Shown here one piece after another: positions 15,883 to 33,186 of a stretch of DNA of 43,505 nt. How positions within the stretch are numbered: the stretch's first letter is position 1; each line of letters starts with the position of its first letter. The DNA lies in assembly GCA_946612115.1 (NCBI GenBank), contig CAMOEI010000008.1, positions 1 to 43,505 of the forward strand, in the 5' to 3' direction. The position numbers and the translations under genes were made by a program. This DNA is from an uncultured Caryophanales bacterium (lineage in GTDB: Bacteria > Bacillota_I > Bacilli_A > RFN20 > CAG-826). The notes under the pieces were generated by a model. It saw only the letters and a program-made list of their open reading frames with translations. It made no database searches and was not told where the DNA came from.

Positions 15883-16037
15883 TAGCTAGATAGTGGCACC
15901 TCTGTTGCCCAACTAGTCTAGGCGTTTCAAAAATGAATGTCGGAGATATGGCCAGGCCCATAAAAAGGTACACCATTGAACGGTAGGGAGTACAGCCGAG
16001 GGGATTGGCCCTAAGGAAGTGGCTCTCATTTTATTTT
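15883..16037 (+). ncRNA. Structured RNA family, copy A
   Basis: About 155 nt, one of five related copies (A-E). It opens with a hairpin CTAGA...TCTAG directly before GGCGTTTC, then has AATGTCGG, a stem ATGG/CCAT flanking GGCCCATAAAAAGGTAC, CGGTAGGGAGTA, and a closing helix GGGAGT/GCTCTC that runs into ATTTTATTTT. Compared with copy B the stems covary: ATGG/CCAT becomes ATGA/TCAT, and GGGAGT/GCTCTC becomes GAGAAT/GTTCTC. Paired substitutions like these indicate selection on RNA structure. All plus-strand frames are interrupted by stops. I do not recognise it as a known Rfam family. Confidence 0.75.
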
Positions 16038-16082: not shown

Positions 16083-16237
16083 TAGCTAGGCTGAGGCACC
16101 TCTGTTGCCCAACAGTCCTAGGCGTTTAATAAAAGAATGTCGAAGAGATGACGGGGCCCATAAAAAGGTACATCATTGAACGGTAGAGAATACGGCCAAG
16201 GGAATTGGACCCACGGTATCGGTTCTCATTTTATTTT
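16083..16237 (+). ncRNA. Structured RNA family, copy B
   Basis: It lies exactly 200 bp after copy A over its whole length. The first hairpin is CTAGG...CCTAG, the middle stem ATGA/TCAT encloses GGGGCCCATAAAAAGGTAC, and the closing helix is GAGAAT/GTTCTC followed by ATTTTATTTT. It has its own promoter. Its last 12 bases overlap the 3' end of the minus-strand gene 16226-16747, so the two transcripts are convergent with complementary 3' ends. Confidence 0.75.
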
Positions 16238-16747
16238 GTCCAATTCAACTTGATTTAAATAAACAATTTGTTCGATGCTGAACGATTTTAAATATTTATG
16301 AACTTTTTCCTTTGGAAAGATTGTCACCAATTTGTTAATTCCTGCATTCTCATCTTCGTTCAATCCACATTTAGTTTGAATCACAACAAGTAGTGGATTT
16401 CCATTTTCGTCTTGAGTAGGAATAATACATGCATATTTATAGTTATTTTCGCTAAGAATACATAATGGATCGTTAACATTTTTTGTTGCTTCGAGAACAA
16501 TTTCAGGAGTAAGTCCATGATAATTGTGTTTTCCTTTGCCACCAACTGGTTGCATTAATTCGTGCAGAGTAGTGGCATCAGCATATAGATCATTCTTGTG
16601 AAAAATTATTTTTTTAATTAGTTTGTTAATTCTACACAGATTTGTATTCCCGAATCTAACAACTAGGTTCTGATAATGCTTTGTTTGGATGGAATATAAC
16701 AAATTTAGTGTCGCTCTTCTTTTTTGAATGTTTGTGTATTTAATCAT
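16226..16747 (-). CDS. 173-aa protein, possible MuF-C/BECR-like domain (copy 1)
   Basis: The protein resembles, by eye, the phage MuF C-terminal and BECR-nuclease-like (PBECR) domains. It has HELMQPVGGKGKHNYHGLTP, then NDPLCILSE, IIPTQDENGNPLLVVI, INKLVTIFPKE and a terminal IVYLN. Those families are predicted toxins or RNases, but no catalytic residue can be assigned with confidence. It is free-standing, not fused to a phage head protein. A close paralogue (about half of residues identical) is at 18413-18931. The start has GGAG about 10 bases upstream and overlaps an upstream frame by ATGA. Two structured RNAs (A, B) lie convergently downstream. Confidence 0.6.
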   Translation of the reverse strand: MIKYTNIQKRRATLNLLYSIQTKHYQNLVVRFGNTNLCRINKLIKKIIFHKNDLYADATTLHELMQPVGGKGKHNYHGLTPEIVLEATKNVNDPLCILSENNYKYACIIPTQDENGNPLLVVIQTKCGLNEDENAGINKLVTIFPKEKVHKYLKSFSIEQIVYLNQVELDKIK

Positions 16748-16794
16748 GTTGATAGTTCTCCATTCTGAGGAGTGATAAATAAAAAATTCCTCAT
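16744..16794 (-). CDS. Possible 16-codon upstream ORF (copy 1)
   Basis: The frame begins at the conserved ATGAGG of the leader and encodes MRNFLFITPQNGELST. Its TGA overlaps the ATG of the 173-aa gene as ATGA, the usual geometry of translational coupling. There is no Shine-Dalgarno sequence before it. The similar frame in copy 2 may only reflect duplication. Confidence 0.3.
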   Translation of the reverse strand: MRNFLFITPQNGELST

Positions 16795-16808
16795 TTATTA
16801 ATAGGGGG
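16764..16808 (-). promoter_or_regulatory. Conserved leader element, copy 1
   Basis: On the plus strand the core CCTCATTTATTAATAGGG (16789-16806) recurs at 18969-18986 and 31894-31911. Read on the minus strand it precedes the gene and forms TGAGGA ... TCCTCA and AAATAA-type pairings around the upstream ORF start, so it is likely part of the 5' untranslated region. Confidence 0.5.
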
Positions 16809-18065: not shown

Positions 18066-18216
18066 TAGCTAGGTAGCGGTGCTAGCCATCCAACTATCCT
18101 AGGCGTTTCGTAAAAGAATGTCGAAGAGATGACAGGGCCCATGAAAAGGTACATCATCAAACGTTAGAGAATACGGCTGCAGGGATTGCCCAAGGTAACG
18201 GTTCTCATTTTATTTT
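18066..18216 (+). ncRNA. Structured RNA family, copy C
   Basis: It starts TAGCTAGGTAG and folds its 5' hairpin with CTATCCTAG. GGCGTTTC and AATGTCGAAGAGATGA follow, then stem ATGA/TCAT around GGGCCCATGAAAAGGTAC, GTTAGAGAATACGG, and the GAGAAT/GTTCTC closing helix ending in ATTTTATTTT. The first hairpin sequence differs from copies A and B while keeping its pairing. Confidence 0.75.
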
Positions 18217-18270: not shown

Positions 18271-18424
18271 TAGCTAGGTAGCGGTGCTAGCCATCCAACT
18301 ATCCTAGGCGTTTCATAAATAAATGTCAGAGAGGTTGACTAGGCCCATAAAAAGGTACATCGCCGAATGGTAGGGAGTGCAGCCGAGGAAATTGGATCCA
18401 AGGTGATGACTCTCATTTTATTTT
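18271..18424 (+). ncRNA. Structured RNA family, copy D
   Basis: It is 205-208 bp after copy C. It has the same 5' hairpin as C but diverges in the middle (GGTTGACTAGGCCC, ACATCGCCGAA). The closing helix is GGGAGT/ACTCTC, a third base-paired version of this stem. The last 12 bases overlap the 3' end of the minus-strand gene 18413-18931, the same 12-base overlap as in copy B. Confidence 0.75.
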
Positions 18425-18931
18425 GTTTAATTCTATTTTGTTCAAATAAATAATCTTATTAGGTTTGACTCTACTTAAATAGTTGTTAATTTTTTCTTTT
18501 GGATACATGGTTACTAGTTTGTTTATATTCGCATCTAAATCATTATCTAATCTACAACCAGTTTCGATTACAGATAGAAGTGGGTCTCTGTTTTCGTATT
18601 TTGTCATCAAAACAATTGCATATTTATCATGTCCATCATCCAAAACACAGATAGGTTTTGCCAAATCGTTTATCGCGCTTAAAAATAACTTTGGGCTGAT
18701 GTTATGGTAATTATGTTTTCCTCTTCCTCCTTTTGGCTGCATCAAATCAAATAAAGTATCTGAATCAACATACAAGTCATTTTTCCTAAATAATGTGAAT
18801 TCAATAATCTCATTAATTCGCTTTAAATTTACATTTTTCAATTTAACGATGGTGGAATAACGTTTAGATCTAAATTCCTCTAAATCTTTTAATGCATTTT
18901 TTGTGTCTTTGATATTAATGAACTTTTTCAT
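18413..18931 (-). CDS. 172-aa protein, possible MuF-C/BECR-like domain (copy 2)
   Basis: This is the paralogue of 16226-16747. Conserved blocks are LFDLMQPKGGRGKHNYHNISP, KPICVLDDGHDKYAIVLMT, NRDPLLSVIETGC, ANINKLVTMYPKEKI and IIYLNKIELNKIK. The N-terminal 50 residues diverge more than the rest. GGAG lies about 9 bases before the ATG. The leader, the upstream hairpin and the pair of structured RNAs are duplicated with it, so the unit of duplication is the whole roughly 1-kb cassette. As for copy 1, the resemblance to MuF-C/PBECR phage domains is by eye and the function is unproven. Charge and size fit a small soluble enzyme or toxin. Confidence 0.6.
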   Translation of the reverse strand: MKKFINIKDTKNALKDLEEFRSKRYSTIVKLKNVNLKRINEIIEFTLFRKNDLYVDSDTLFDLMQPKGGRGKHNYHNISPKLFLSAINDLAKPICVLDDGHDKYAIVLMTKYENRDPLLSVIETGCRLDNDLDANINKLVTMYPKEKINNYLSRVKPNKIIYLNKIELNKIK

Positions 18932-18974
18932 ATTGTTCTCCGTTCTGAGGAGTGATAAATAAAAGGTTCCTCAT
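18915..18974 (-). CDS. Possible 19-codon upstream ORF (copy 2)
   Basis: It begins at the conserved ATGAGG of the leader, encodes MRNLLFITPQNGEQYEKVH, and overlaps the start of the 172-aa gene by 17 bases in another frame. No Shine-Dalgarno sequence. See the matching frames at 16744-16794 and 31756-31899. Confidence 0.3.
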   Translation of the reverse strand: MRNLLFITPQNGEQYEKVH

Positions 18975-18988
18975 TTATTAATAGGGAG
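18944..18988 (-). promoter_or_regulatory. Conserved leader element, copy 2
   Basis: Core CCTCATTTATTAATAGGG at 18969-18986 (plus-strand reading), with the same flanking TCTGAGGAGTGATAAATAAA and TTTTTCGGATTTTTTT as copy 1. Confidence 0.5.
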
Positions 18989-30693: not shown

Positions 30694-30716
30694 AGGAGCC
30701 TTTGGCTCCTTTTTTA
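30694..30716. terminator. Terminator between convergent genes
   Basis: AGGAGCC-TTT-GGCTCCT followed by TTTTTT on the plus strand. It abuts the stop of the minus-strand HEPN gene. Confidence 0.85.
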
Positions 30717-31064
30717 TAGCAAACTCGATATTTTATCTCTTAATTTAATAATATCTATCGTAATAGCGGAATAGACGTAATGTAAATCAACATCCCCATA
30801 ATCATGGACTAGTCGATTTCTAAAGCCTTTAATTTGTCTCCATTCAATATCGTTATGAATTAATTTAAAAGTATCAGAAATCTTATCAGCGTGTTCTGAT
30901 ATTTGAATAAATCTTAATATAACTGCGTCAACTGTTTTGCTATCTAGATATAAGTCATATAGACTCACACCTTTTGAATATTGAACAATTAAATCAATCT
31001 CATCGATTATCTTTTTAAGATAATAGTTATCGTCTTTAACTTTTGGTGTAGATTTTAATTCCAT
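30714..31064 (-). CDS. hepT: HEPN-domain ribonuclease toxin (HepT-like, DUF86)
   Basis: This 116-aa all-helical protein has the HEPN catalytic motif R-x4-H-x-Y as Arg82 ... His87-Asp-Tyr89 (FRNRLVHDYGD). Related HepT proteins are toxins neutralised by a MntA nucleotidyltransferase that modifies a Tyr of this motif (type VII toxin-antitoxin). Its start overlaps the 3' end of the mntA-like gene by 29 bp, giving the usual antitoxin-then-toxin order with translational coupling. A chromosomal stability or phage-defence role is inferred from the family. Confidence 0.85.
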   Translation of the reverse strand: MELKSTPKVKDDNYYLKKIIDEIDLIVQYSKGVSLYDLYLDSKTVDAVILRFIQISEHADKISDTFKLIHNDIEWRQIKGFRNRLVHDYGDVDLHYVYSAITIDIIKLRDKISSLL

Positions 31065-31521
31065 CTTTTAAAATTTCGTTTAAAAGAGTTGGATTGTTAT
31101 TAAGTTGCTCTAAATTAAGTAGATCAACACGCTTTCTTAATTCTTCTCTTAAGTGTTCTGCTAGGCCATAGAATTCCATTCCGGTGATAGAAGTGGATAT
31201 TAATAAATCAATATCGCTGTTATCTTTTGCCTTGTGTCTGGCATAACTACCAAATAGATAACAGTAATCAACGTCATATTGAGATAAAATATCATTAATA
31301 GTAATTTTAATATCTTCTAAAGAAAGAACTCCGTGTTCTTCATCGATAAAACCATATTTCTCCAATTCTTGGATGAAATATTTGTATTTAACTGTATTAG
31401 TTTTATTTTGATTGTTCTCATAATCCTTATAGGATCTCAAAGACACTCCGAGTAATTTACTAGCAGCTATTTGTGTTAATCCTTTTTTAATTCTTAATTG
31501 TTTTAGTGACATATTATTCAT
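31036..31521 (-). CDS. mntA: XRE-HTH fused to MNT nucleotidyltransferase antitoxin
   Basis: This 161-aa protein has two domains. Residues 4-55 are an XRE-type helix-turn-helix (LKQLRIKKGLTQIAASKLLGVSLRSYKDYE). Residues of about 75-161 are a minimal nucleotidyltransferase with Gly91-Ser92-x10-Asp103-x-Asp105 (GSYARHKAKDNSDIDLL). MNT proteins antagonise HEPN toxins by AMP or polyphosphate-type transfer to the toxin. The HTH should let the antitoxin repress its own operon, and repeated TTGCACYTT sites surround the promoter. The -10 box lies so close that the ATG at 31521 is at the predicted transcript start (leaderless); an internal ATG at 31512 is the alternative. Confidence 0.85.
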   Translation of the reverse strand: MNNMSLKQLRIKKGLTQIAASKLLGVSLRSYKDYENNQNKTNTVKYKYFIQELEKYGFIDEEHGVLSLEDIKITINDILSQYDVDYCYLFGSYARHKAKDNSDIDLLISTSITGMEFYGLAEHLREELRKRVDLLNLEQLNNNPTLLNEILKDGIKIYTKS

Positions 31522-31692: not shown

Positions 31693-31718
31693 GATCACCT
31701 TAGTGGTGGTCTTTTTTT
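31693..31718 (+). terminator. Terminator overlapping the peptide gene 3' end
   Basis: GATCACC-TTAGT-GGTGGTC followed by seven T. The loop contains the reverse complement of the peptide gene's TAA stop. Confidence 0.75.
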
Positions 31719-31771
31719 ATTTCGAGAATAATCGCTAGGATTATGACGAGAACAATCAAAGATATGTCCAT
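31700..31771 (-). CDS. 23-aa hydrophobic peptide, type I toxin-like
   Basis: The peptide is MDISLIVLVIILAIILE followed by a charged tail IKKDHH: one membrane helix plus a basic end, the usual design of Fst/TxpA/Ldr-type membrane toxins. AAGGAG lies 7 bases before the ATG. The mRNA leader on the minus strand is strongly structured: CCTGGCTA pairs with TAGCCAGG (31860-31867 with 31791-31798), with inner CGCCA/TGGCG. A plus-strand promoter and terminator overlap the 3' end, as in antisense-controlled systems. A longer frame (31756-31899) overlaps its start, reminiscent of mok/hok. Too short for ordinary gene finders. Confidence 0.6.
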   Translation of the reverse strand: MDISLIVLVIILAIILEIKKDHH

Positions 31772-31899
31772 AGGCAATCTCCTTTCCACCCCTGGCTATC
31801 ACGGTAGTGACCGCCAAGATAAGAAACCATGGAAAGAACTAATGGCGAATCACAAGGATTAGCCAGGAATAAGTAGGCAATAAATATCACTGCCCTCAT
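31756..31899 (-). CDS. Possible 47-codon upstream overlapping ORF
   Basis: It begins at the conserved leader ATGAGG (MRAVIFIAYLFLANPC...) and ends with TGA 16 bases inside the 23-aa peptide gene, in another frame. No Shine-Dalgarno sequence. It could be a leader frame that controls peptide translation, or only an open stretch of a structured RNA. Confidence 0.3.
   Translation of the reverse strand: MRAVIFIAYLFLANPCDSPLVLSMVSYLGGHYRDSQGWKGDCLWTYL
31791..31867 (-). promoter_or_regulatory. Structured leader of the peptide mRNA
   Basis: The 8-bp arms CCTGGCTA and TAGCCAGG close a branched fold containing CGGT-CACT-ACCG and CGCCA/TGGCG stems. It ends about 9 bases before the AAGGAG of the peptide gene and could mask or expose it. 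Confidence 0.5.
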
Positions 31900-31911
31900 T
31901 TATTAATAGGG
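31894..31911 (-). promoter_or_regulatory. Conserved leader element, copy 3
   Basis: CCTCATTTATTAATAGGG (plus-strand reading), identical to the cores at 16789-16806 and 18969-18986, here upstream of the peptide gene instead of the 172-173-aa gene. A separate perfect inverted repeat TATATTCA-TAT-TGAATATA lies upstream at 31955-31973. Confidence 0.5.
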
Positions 31912-32052: not shown

Positions 32053-32200
32053 CAAAAAATAAAAAAATGAGAACGAGAGGATGGCTCCAATTGCCAACTC
32101 CAATTCTCTACCATTAGTTTTAGATCTATAAAAGATTGAAGACTAACGTCATTCTTTTTTTGGAACGTCTTACTGGAGGCCTTACCCTTACCAGCAGCTA
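32053..32200 (-). ncRNA. Structured RNA family, diverged copy E
   Basis: On the minus strand the order of conserved blocks matches copies A-D: ATAGCT, a hairpin closed by CTGG/CCAG, ACGTTCC, AAAAAGAATGACG, a stem GTTAGT/ACTAAT, GGTAGAGAAT, CAATTGGAGCCA, and the closing GAGAAT/GTTCTC helix running into ATTTTTTTATTTTTT. Overall sequence identity is low but every stem is kept by compensating changes. It has its own promoter with the same spacing to AGCT. It stands 140 bases upstream of the peptide-gene leader. Confidence 0.6.
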
Positions 32201-32205
32201 TCAAT

Positions 32206-32233
32206 ATAATAAATATTTTTATAAAAAAATCAA
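32206..32233 (-). promoter_or_regulatory. Promoter of structured RNA copy E
   Basis: Minus strand: TTGATT (32228-32233), 16-bp spacer, TATTAT (32206-32211), then 6 bases to AGCT, the same geometry as copies A-D. It is divergent from the gene at 32251. Confidence 0.55.
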
Positions 32234-32250: not shown

Positions 32251-33186
32251 ATGAAAGAAGAAGGAATTGGCAAAAAAATTAAAAAGATTAGAGAAAACAA
32301 CAAATTAAGTCAGGATGAATTTGCAAAATCTTTAGGATATAAAGATAAATCGATGGTTTCTCATATTGAAAAAGGTGATTCTGATATGACCTATGAGAAA
32401 ATCCAATTGTTGCTCAAAGTCTACAATATAGACGCGAATGAATTGTTCGATTACGGTGAGCAAAACATAGATAACTCTAACCAACACTCTAGAACAGAGA
32501 TGCTAATTGGAAAAGAAGGATTAAAGAAACTACAGAGCACTAAAGTTCTACTATTTGGAATTGGTGGAGTTGGAGGAAGTGTTTTTGAAGCGTTGGTGAG
32601 ATCTGGAGTAGGAGAAATCACAGTAGTGGATAATGATGTCTTTGACATCACTAACCTCAACCGCCAAACTTTAGCGACATATTCTAATATTGGTAAACCA
32701 AAAGTCTATGAAGCAGTTAAAAGAGCAAACGAGATTAATAAAGATGTAAAAGTAATTCCTATTAAGCTTTTTTATCTTCCTGAAACCAAAGAACAATTTG
32801 ATTTCTCTAAATATGACTATGTCATTGACTGTGTTGACACAGTAAGCGCGAAACTTTCAATCGTTGAAGAAGCAAAGAAATGTAATGTAAAAGTTATTTC
32901 TGCGATGGGAGCGGGAAATAAACTTCATCCAGAACTACTTGAGATTAGTGATATTTCTAAAACCGAAGTTGATCCACTTGCGAAAGTCATTCGTAGAGAA
33001 TTGAGAAAATTAGGTATTAATCATCTAAAAGTTGTATTTTCTAAGGAATCTCCTATACAAAATAGCCCTTCTAAGGGGCGAAATGAGAAAGGAAGAGCAA
33101 TTCCTGGGAGTATGATGTTAATCCCTTCTAGCATGGGTTTATTGCTCGCTAGTGAGGTTATTAATGACTTGTTAGTTAATAATTAA
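32251..33186 (+). CDS. tcdA: XRE-HTH fused to TcdA-type E1-like enzyme
   Basis: This 311-aa protein has two domains. Residues 1-65 are an XRE helix-turn-helix (IKKIRENNKLSQDEFAKSLGYKDKSMVSHIEKG). Residues of about 78-311 are a TcdA/CsdL-type ThiF fold: HSRTEMLIGKEGL, nucleotide-binding GIGGVGG (103-109), NLNRQ, KPKV, DCVDT, GAGNK, DISKTEVDPLAKVIRRELRK, and the terminal GSMMLIPSSMGLLLASEVI. TcdA uses ATP to dehydrate and cyclise the tRNA modification t6A37 to ct6A. The N-terminal HTH is an unusual addition for this family. The ribosome binding site is TAGGAG. It ends at a terminator shared with the convergent GH2 gene. Confidence 0.88.
   Translation: MKEEGIGKKIKKIRENNKLSQDEFAKSLGYKDKSMVSHIEKGDSDMTYEKIQLLLKVYNIDANELFDYGEQNIDNSNQHSRTEMLIGKEGLKKLQSTKVLLFGIGGVGGSVFEALVRSGVGEITVVDNDVFDITNLNRQTLATYSNIGKPKVYEAVKRANEINKDVKVIPIKLFYLPETKEQFDFSKYDYVIDCVDTVSAKLSIVEEAKKCNVKVISAMGAGNKLHPELLEISDISKTEVDPLAKVIRRELRKLGINHLKVVFSKESPIQNSPSKGRNEKGRAIPGSMMLIPSSMGLLLASEVINDLLVNN

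Follow-up and report, generated by a model that had tools for sequence, protein, structure and literature searches.

RNA antitoxins that act on a protein are known from few families, and the RNA is normally encoded in the operon of its toxin. In the definition of the ToxIN class, the antitoxin RNA lies upstream of the toxin in one operon, with a terminator between the two, and consists of tandem repeats (PMC5086642); the repeats of type III systems are from 34-36 to about 50 nt long (PMC12373285). A structured non-coding RNA is also the antitoxin of a non-ToxN protein, AbiF (an Abi_2 protein), and this RNA precedes the toxin gene and is held in Rfam as RF03085 (PMC12373285). On the protein side, Iyer and colleagues assigned MuF-C, a domain of phage polyvalent and MuF proteins, to the PBECR group of predicted RNases with an active-site His and Thr/Ser; in most of these proteins it occurs as a fusion with MuF, portal or other domains (PMC5512222).

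The window analysed here, a 43.5-kb stretch of DNA, encodes two solo MuF_C proteins, four RNAs (A-D) adjoining their genes on the opposite strand, and a fifth RNA, E, that stands apart. Like the type III systems (ToxIN, CptIN, TenpIN, AbiQ), the module links an endoribonuclease-like toxin, in this case a predicted one, to a structured RNA, and its smallest RNA unit, at about 45 nt, falls within the length range of the type III repeats. In contrast to ToxIN, RNA and toxin lie on opposite strands at all 34 testable loci and the RNA has its own promoter; each RNA is a single unit, the short variants consist of one hairpin, and repeated copies are separate genes; the toxin is of the BECR/MuF_C kind, and there is no match in Rfam or PADLOC. 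Because both the common operon and the tandem repeats are missing, we do not file the module under ToxIN-type systems; by analogy, it may well work like a type III system. The use of a structured RNA as antitoxin of a non-ToxN protein, which we propose here, would be shared with AbiF, but the protein family and the RNA are different, and searches of Rfam gave no match to the RNAs of the MuF_C loci. With the PBECR/MuF-C domain of phage proteins the module has in common PF18819 and the His + Thr active-site layout, except that here the domain forms a solo protein of about 170 aa with an RNA partner. We found no description of the MuF_C-RNA pair in the open-access literature. The reading that we consider probable is a type-III-like toxin-antitoxin system with free-standing RNA antitoxin genes, of which E is an orphan subtype II antitoxin.

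RNA E and its family

An earlier note on this DNA described E as a strongly diverged fifth copy of the RNA, placed on the opposite strand. Three features delimit it:

32206..32233, minus strand: promoter of E, TTGATT-16-TATTAT (hexamers; the -10 spacing is shared by 38 of 40 long copies)
32060..32200, minus strand: RNA E, subtype II, with the H1 hairpin, H2 (CGUUC:GAAUG), H3 (UUAGU:ACUAA), the GGUAGAG linker and the 3' hairpin with T-run
32064..32108, minus strand: 3' hairpin of E with apical GGCAAUUGGAGCC, the sole part common to all variants, the ~45-nt short RNAs included

A covariance model built from A-D only (R1) recovered E at 32200-32060 on the minus strand (35.1 bits, E=4.8e-8) and produced nothing further than A-D and E in the 43.5-kb window up to E=10. 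The recovery by the model, together with the paired helices, identifies E as a structurally conserved relative of A-D. The block order given in the note, UAGCU..., hairpin, ACGUUCC, AAAAAAAGAAUGACG, stem, GGUAGAGAAU, CAAUUGGAGCCA and GUUCUC followed by a T-run, is present on the minus strand, as is the promoter, TTGATT-16-TATTAT, at 32233-32206; the extent of E is about 32200-32060, with the promoter reaching 32233. In a whole-genome search with a second model, R2, which has E among its training rows, E scored 73.6 bits. Promoter sites resembling TTGATT-16-TATTAT are equally common in shuffled sequence; of the 40 long copies, drawn from this genome and others, 38 (E included) have a best -10 hexamer whose end lies precisely 5 nt ahead of the UAGC/CAGC start. 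Thus, E has both the stand-alone promoter at the fixed distance and the 3' hairpin with the GGnAAUUGGAnCC tip that characterize the A-D family.

Examination of the helices bore out the claim that they are paired by different bases in different copies, and supports the suggestion that selection acts on the RNA. Pairing is maintained with changed bases in H3 (GAUGA:UCAUC in C, GGCAG:CUGCC in copy G, GAAGA:UCUUC in genome G015, UUAGU:ACUAA in E) and in the apical stem of the 3' hairpin (GGG:CCC in B, GGC:GCC in E). Among 11 aligned copies, 93% of the helix cells are paired, compared with 77% in shuffles (0/500) and 36-44% with slid partners, and two-sided changes occur in 24 of the 38 pairs; among 59 distinct copies, 88% of the cells are paired, compared with 35-44% with slid partners, and two-sided changes occur in 37 of the 38 pairs, both alignments being fitted to the covariance model and hence biased towards it. 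When the E-like copies were aligned independently with MAFFT, two-sided changes were found in 8 of the 22 predicted pairs. The folding energy of E alone beats that of dinucleotide shuffles (z -2.9, 4/500); A-D taken as single sequences are unremarkable by the same comparison. A pseudoknot between the UUGG loop and CCAA (H1), judged by eye, was rejected, given that it is not kept outside A-D. Searches of Rfam at the gathering and permissive thresholds gave no credible match to these RNAs; the family is unrecorded.

One element of the original description has to be revised, namely, that E diverged independently from A-D. Judging by its sequence, E is no worn A-D copy but a member of a second RNA subtype, one that has conserved blocks of its own. 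This subtype comprises 12 copies, in the genome of E, in another species of the genus (G010:C8) and in two other genera (G202, G223/G224), and is marked by the blocks UAGCU.C, AAGACGUU, AAUGACG..AGUCUUC and UAAAACUA..GGUAGAG. Subtype I, to which A-D and most other copies belong, has GGGCCCAUAAAAAGGUAC in H3 instead of the subtype II block; the layout, H1, H2, H3, GGUAG and 3' hairpin, is common to both. Elsewhere in the genome of A-E, R1 also detected two copies on contig C2 and a single one on C3; the genomes G015, G013 and G010 yielded copies as well. In a third form, the 3' hairpin stands alone, about 45 nt long, directly behind a TTGACA/TATAAT promoter. This is the smallest RNA that accompanies a toxin, and its GGCAAUUGGAGCC tip is also that of E, the apical GGCAAUUGGAGCC recurring unchanged in a number of short and subtype I RNAs. 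In the copies that lie on C3 of this genome (locus L042, 3360-3760, minus strand), the GGGCCCAUAAAAAGG loop is lost and a separate terminator comes behind the 3' hairpin, which suggests that the hairpin is kept for more than termination.

Linkage of the RNA to solo MuF_C proteins

The loci to the left of E in the window consist of the following:

15883..16036, plus strand: RNA A, subtype I (R1 match)
16083..16236, plus strand: RNA B, subtype I (R1 match), terminator meeting the 3' end of the MuF_C gene
16226..16747, minus strand: MuF_C (PF18819) solo protein, 173 aa, predicted BECR-fold RNase toxin, partner of RNA A/B (Pfam)
16789..16805, minus strand: leader CCTATTAATAAATGAGG upstream of the start of this MuF_C gene; also precedes recA
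18066..18215, plus strand: RNA C, subtype I (R1 match)
18271..18423, plus strand: RNA D, subtype I (R1 match), terminator meeting the 3' end of the MuF_C gene
18413..18931, minus strand: MuF_C solo protein, 172 aa, partner of RNA C/D (Pfam, AlphaFold2, VIA-align)
18969..18985, minus strand: the same leader, upstream of the second MuF_C gene

The products of the two genes match PF18819 with 33.8 and 35.9 bits, above the cut-off of 27.6, and Q65, H73, N74, H76, K138 and T141 are invariant in the family analysed here, so that the conserved His and Thr of a BECR-fold RNase are in place. The AlphaFold2 model is confident (pLDDT 88.5). Among the 15 best rows of a VIA-align comparison, nearly all are toxins of the BrnT, RelE, HigB, YoeB and CdiA types, with modest Z values (6.0 down to 3.1), and Foldseek gave nothing significant with this model (E 0.3). 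With a fold match of this modest quality, the assignment of RNase activity draws on the Pfam/BECR classification and the catalytic residues; with this basis, solo MuF_C is predicted to be an RNase with a RelE/BECR fold. Searches of PHROGs, NCBIfam, PADLOC and PDB sequences produced no match for the protein, and a protein search of viral contigs, phages and plasmids detected no relative of solo MuF_C. Nor do Pfam, PADLOC or NCBIfam match it to ToxN, CptN, TenpN or AbiQ; the RelE/BrnT-type fold list is compatible with ToxN too.

A MuF_C profile search of 279 genomes of the order yielded 39 loci, of which 34 were testable once three loci cut by contig ends, one 63-codon fragment and one remote homologue were left out (G118:C27, where the contig ends inside the RNA, is counted among the 34). 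In all 34, the RNA adjoins the gene on the opposite strand, 28 loci being convergent and 6 divergent. Within the genus, 19 genomes carry nine PF18819 genes, each with a convergent RNA. An independent GTDB scan, most of the loci of which duplicate genomes already seen via the other tool, showed the hairpin within 3-49 nt of the end of the match at 10 of 10 loci. Conversely, R2, run over the 279 genomes with no protein information, matched in 17 genomes from seven genera, all in one family; 12 of the 19 RNA loci read outside the first-studied ones have a MuF_C ORF within 700 nt, these being spread over several other genera, and several of the remainder end at contig edges. Among 395 genomes of the class, R2 had no match outside this one bacterial family. 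The remote MuF_C of G407, from another family, and that of G227:C52 are not accompanied by the RNA. The hosts of the RNA family are gut bacteria of ruminants; in them an RNA with no neighbouring MuF_C gene is the exception, and E belongs to the small number that lack one. The RNA form tracks the toxin tree, with 4 changes compared with 11.5 in shuffles (0/200), a clustering inflated by near-copies in the data; subtype II is itself paired with MuF_C in G224 and G202.

The position of the RNA on the strand opposite to the toxin gene at all loci, and the overlap of about 10-25 nt, mainly T-run, between the RNA and the 3' end of the toxin gene at convergent loci, could also be taken to indicate a type I-like or regulatory antisense RNA that pairs with the toxin mRNA and blocks its translation. 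This seems very unlikely: the six divergent loci do not overlap, complementarity between the RNA and the toxin leader is inconsistent (z between -2.8 and +0.8 and for the most part close to 0, with one near-copy group as the main source of low values), and the mean pairing energy is about the same for cognate and non-cognate combinations (-40.3 vs -38.1 kcal/mol). Moreover, a deeply covarying multi-hairpin fold is unexpected for an antisense RNA.

Genome G000 contains eight exact copies of the 17-nt leader CCTATTAATAAATGAGG that lies upstream of both MuF_C genes, and a GGAAATTTTTTAAAAATTCC palindrome often comes before it. Downstream of the leader are recA, both MuF_C genes, several modules of small hydrophobic peptides and additional small ORFs. 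Its occurrence in front of MuF_C, recA and the peptide modules alike suggests a common signal to which toxin synthesis responds; the genes led by CCTATTAATAAATGAGG are candidates for a stress or competence regulon.

Neighbours of E, toxin decay and orphan RNAs

The surroundings of E differ from those of A-D and comprise:

30714-31521, minus strand: HepT-like ribonuclease and HTH-nucleotidyltransferase pair beyond the peptide frame, a likely HepT/MntA toxin-antitoxin
31700-31771, minus strand: 23-aa hydrophobic peptide frame left of E, with a promoter-like site on the opposite strand
31894-31910, minus strand: third window copy of leader CCTATTAATAAATGAGG, exact
32251-33186, plus strand: HTH-ThiF (TcdA-like) gene right of E; a TcdA/ThiF-like gene is present in 17 of the 19 genus genomes

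The HTH-ThiF gene was rejected as the partner of E, being present in 17 of 19 genus genomes; as the loci of this gene examined in the other genomes carry no RNA, the site of E is lineage-specific. In G000 and G012 (L153), an N-terminal HTH is fused to the TcdA/ThiF-like gene, and in the other genus members the matching part begins after the HTH. G015 has a comparable HTH joined to an alpha/beta hydrolase, and this gene, too, is divergent from an RNA copy.

The earlier note had drawn attention to the peptide gene next to E, and the adjacency and common strand of the two would fit a module formed by E and the hydrophobic peptide (31771-31700, minus strand). This is highly improbable: near-identical or related peptide modules are found elsewhere in the genome, on C3 and C18, with relatives on C4 and C5, and none has an E-like RNA; the peptide module comes with a separate promoter-like site, located on the opposite strand; and no such peptide is seen beside the closest relative of E, G010:C8. 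The partner of the RNA family is MuF_C, as found at 34 of 34 testable loci. Peptide frames of 23-24 aa (MDISLIVLVIILAIILEIKKDHH and relatives) with a structured leader occur in the window as well as at L164 and L171 and, in related form, at L165 and L166; from their sequences, they are candidates for a repeated type-I-like toxin-antitoxin family separate from E. A second, unrelated candidate RNA family, CAAAGGUGGAAA...GCGACCACGGCGCA...UUGACAAAUAA, with its own terminator, was observed at L017, L019, L043, L045 and L051-L056, where it adjoins short-RNA MuF_C loci near another small protein with a MuF_C-like motif; it has no match in Rfam.

Another line of evidence comes from loci where the toxin is damaged or missing. 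Toxin genes are frameshifted or split beside an intact RNA in G001, G005, G195 and G122; in G014, only a C-terminal toxin remnant adjoins an intact short RNA; in G010:C8, a frame of 34 codons, possibly left over from a toxin, comes after an E-like RNA; and five orphan RNAs, E and those of G003, G107, G202:C52 and G224:C18:27083, have no detected remnant. The reverse, a testable toxin without an RNA, was found at none of the 34 loci. Toxins decay while RNAs persist, the asymmetry expected of a harmful protein and a protective RNA. The RNA could, alternatively, serve MuF_C as a substrate, scaffold or guide that directs or activates the nuclease and does not inhibit it, given that the close linkage, and an RNA subtype that varies along with the protein clade, are compatible with every kind of obligate RNA-protein partnership. 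We regard this as unlikely, because the RNAs outlive the proteins (E, G010:C8, G014, G003, G107, G202:C52, G224:C18), no testable protein lacks the RNA, and no variable, spacer-like segment is seen in the RNA.

At E itself, neither blast nor a profile search detected a MuF_C gene or remnant; the adjoining opposite-strand MuF_C gene is absent, in contrast to its subtype relatives in G202 and G224. Because no toxin remnant is detectable, the origin of E as a toxin-less module is deduced from these relatives. All four toxins of its genome are accompanied by subtype I RNAs, and E is therefore left with no visible cognate toxin in an assembly that is 96.5% complete. Arguably, E might be a neutral decaying relic with no present function, in line with the lack of an adjoining toxin or remnant and of conservation of the site in the genus. 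We consider this rather doubtful, since the promoter, the main helices and the GGCAAUUGGAGCC tip are all intact, the fold stands out from shuffles (z -2.9), and E shares 80% identity with an orphan of another species, the differences including compensatory ones.

The suggestion in the earlier note that E is a mobile or trans-acting RNA holds in part. Mobility applies to the whole module: toxins nearly identical across different genera, with the short RNA alongside (L106-L109, L111), indicate horizontal transfer, recent in these cases, and the site of E is not conserved; the evidence does not extend to movement of E by itself. Action in trans is plausible, given that E has no adjoining toxin and that the members of the family are all separate transcription units.

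Proposed mode of action and significance

Under the type-III-like reading, a structured RNA, transcribed from the opposite strand with its own ordinary sigma-70-type promoter and terminator, would bind and restrain MuF_C, with the 3' hairpin (GGnAAUUGGAnCC tip) as the putative core recognition element. Transcription of the toxin would be driven from the separate leader shared with recA, such that stress could tip the balance between the two. The cognate toxin of E would be absent from the assembled genome, and any activity of E would be in trans, with incoming toxins of its own subtype as possible targets. More tentatively, and with somewhat less than even confidence, we propose that the module can be considered an architecture of its own: an RNase toxin held via a 45-nt hairpin by independently transcribed, duplicable and separable opposite-strand RNA genes, with a recA-type stress leader on the toxin and with orphans, E among them, retained to protect in trans against related toxins.

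The three or more RNA forms (subtype I, subtype II, hairpin only), along with the many natural orphans, make a comparative system that would address the inhibition of a BECR RNase by RNA, the evolution of specificity and a possible role of orphans as anti-addiction genes. Solo MuF_C proteins would thereby gain a biological role.
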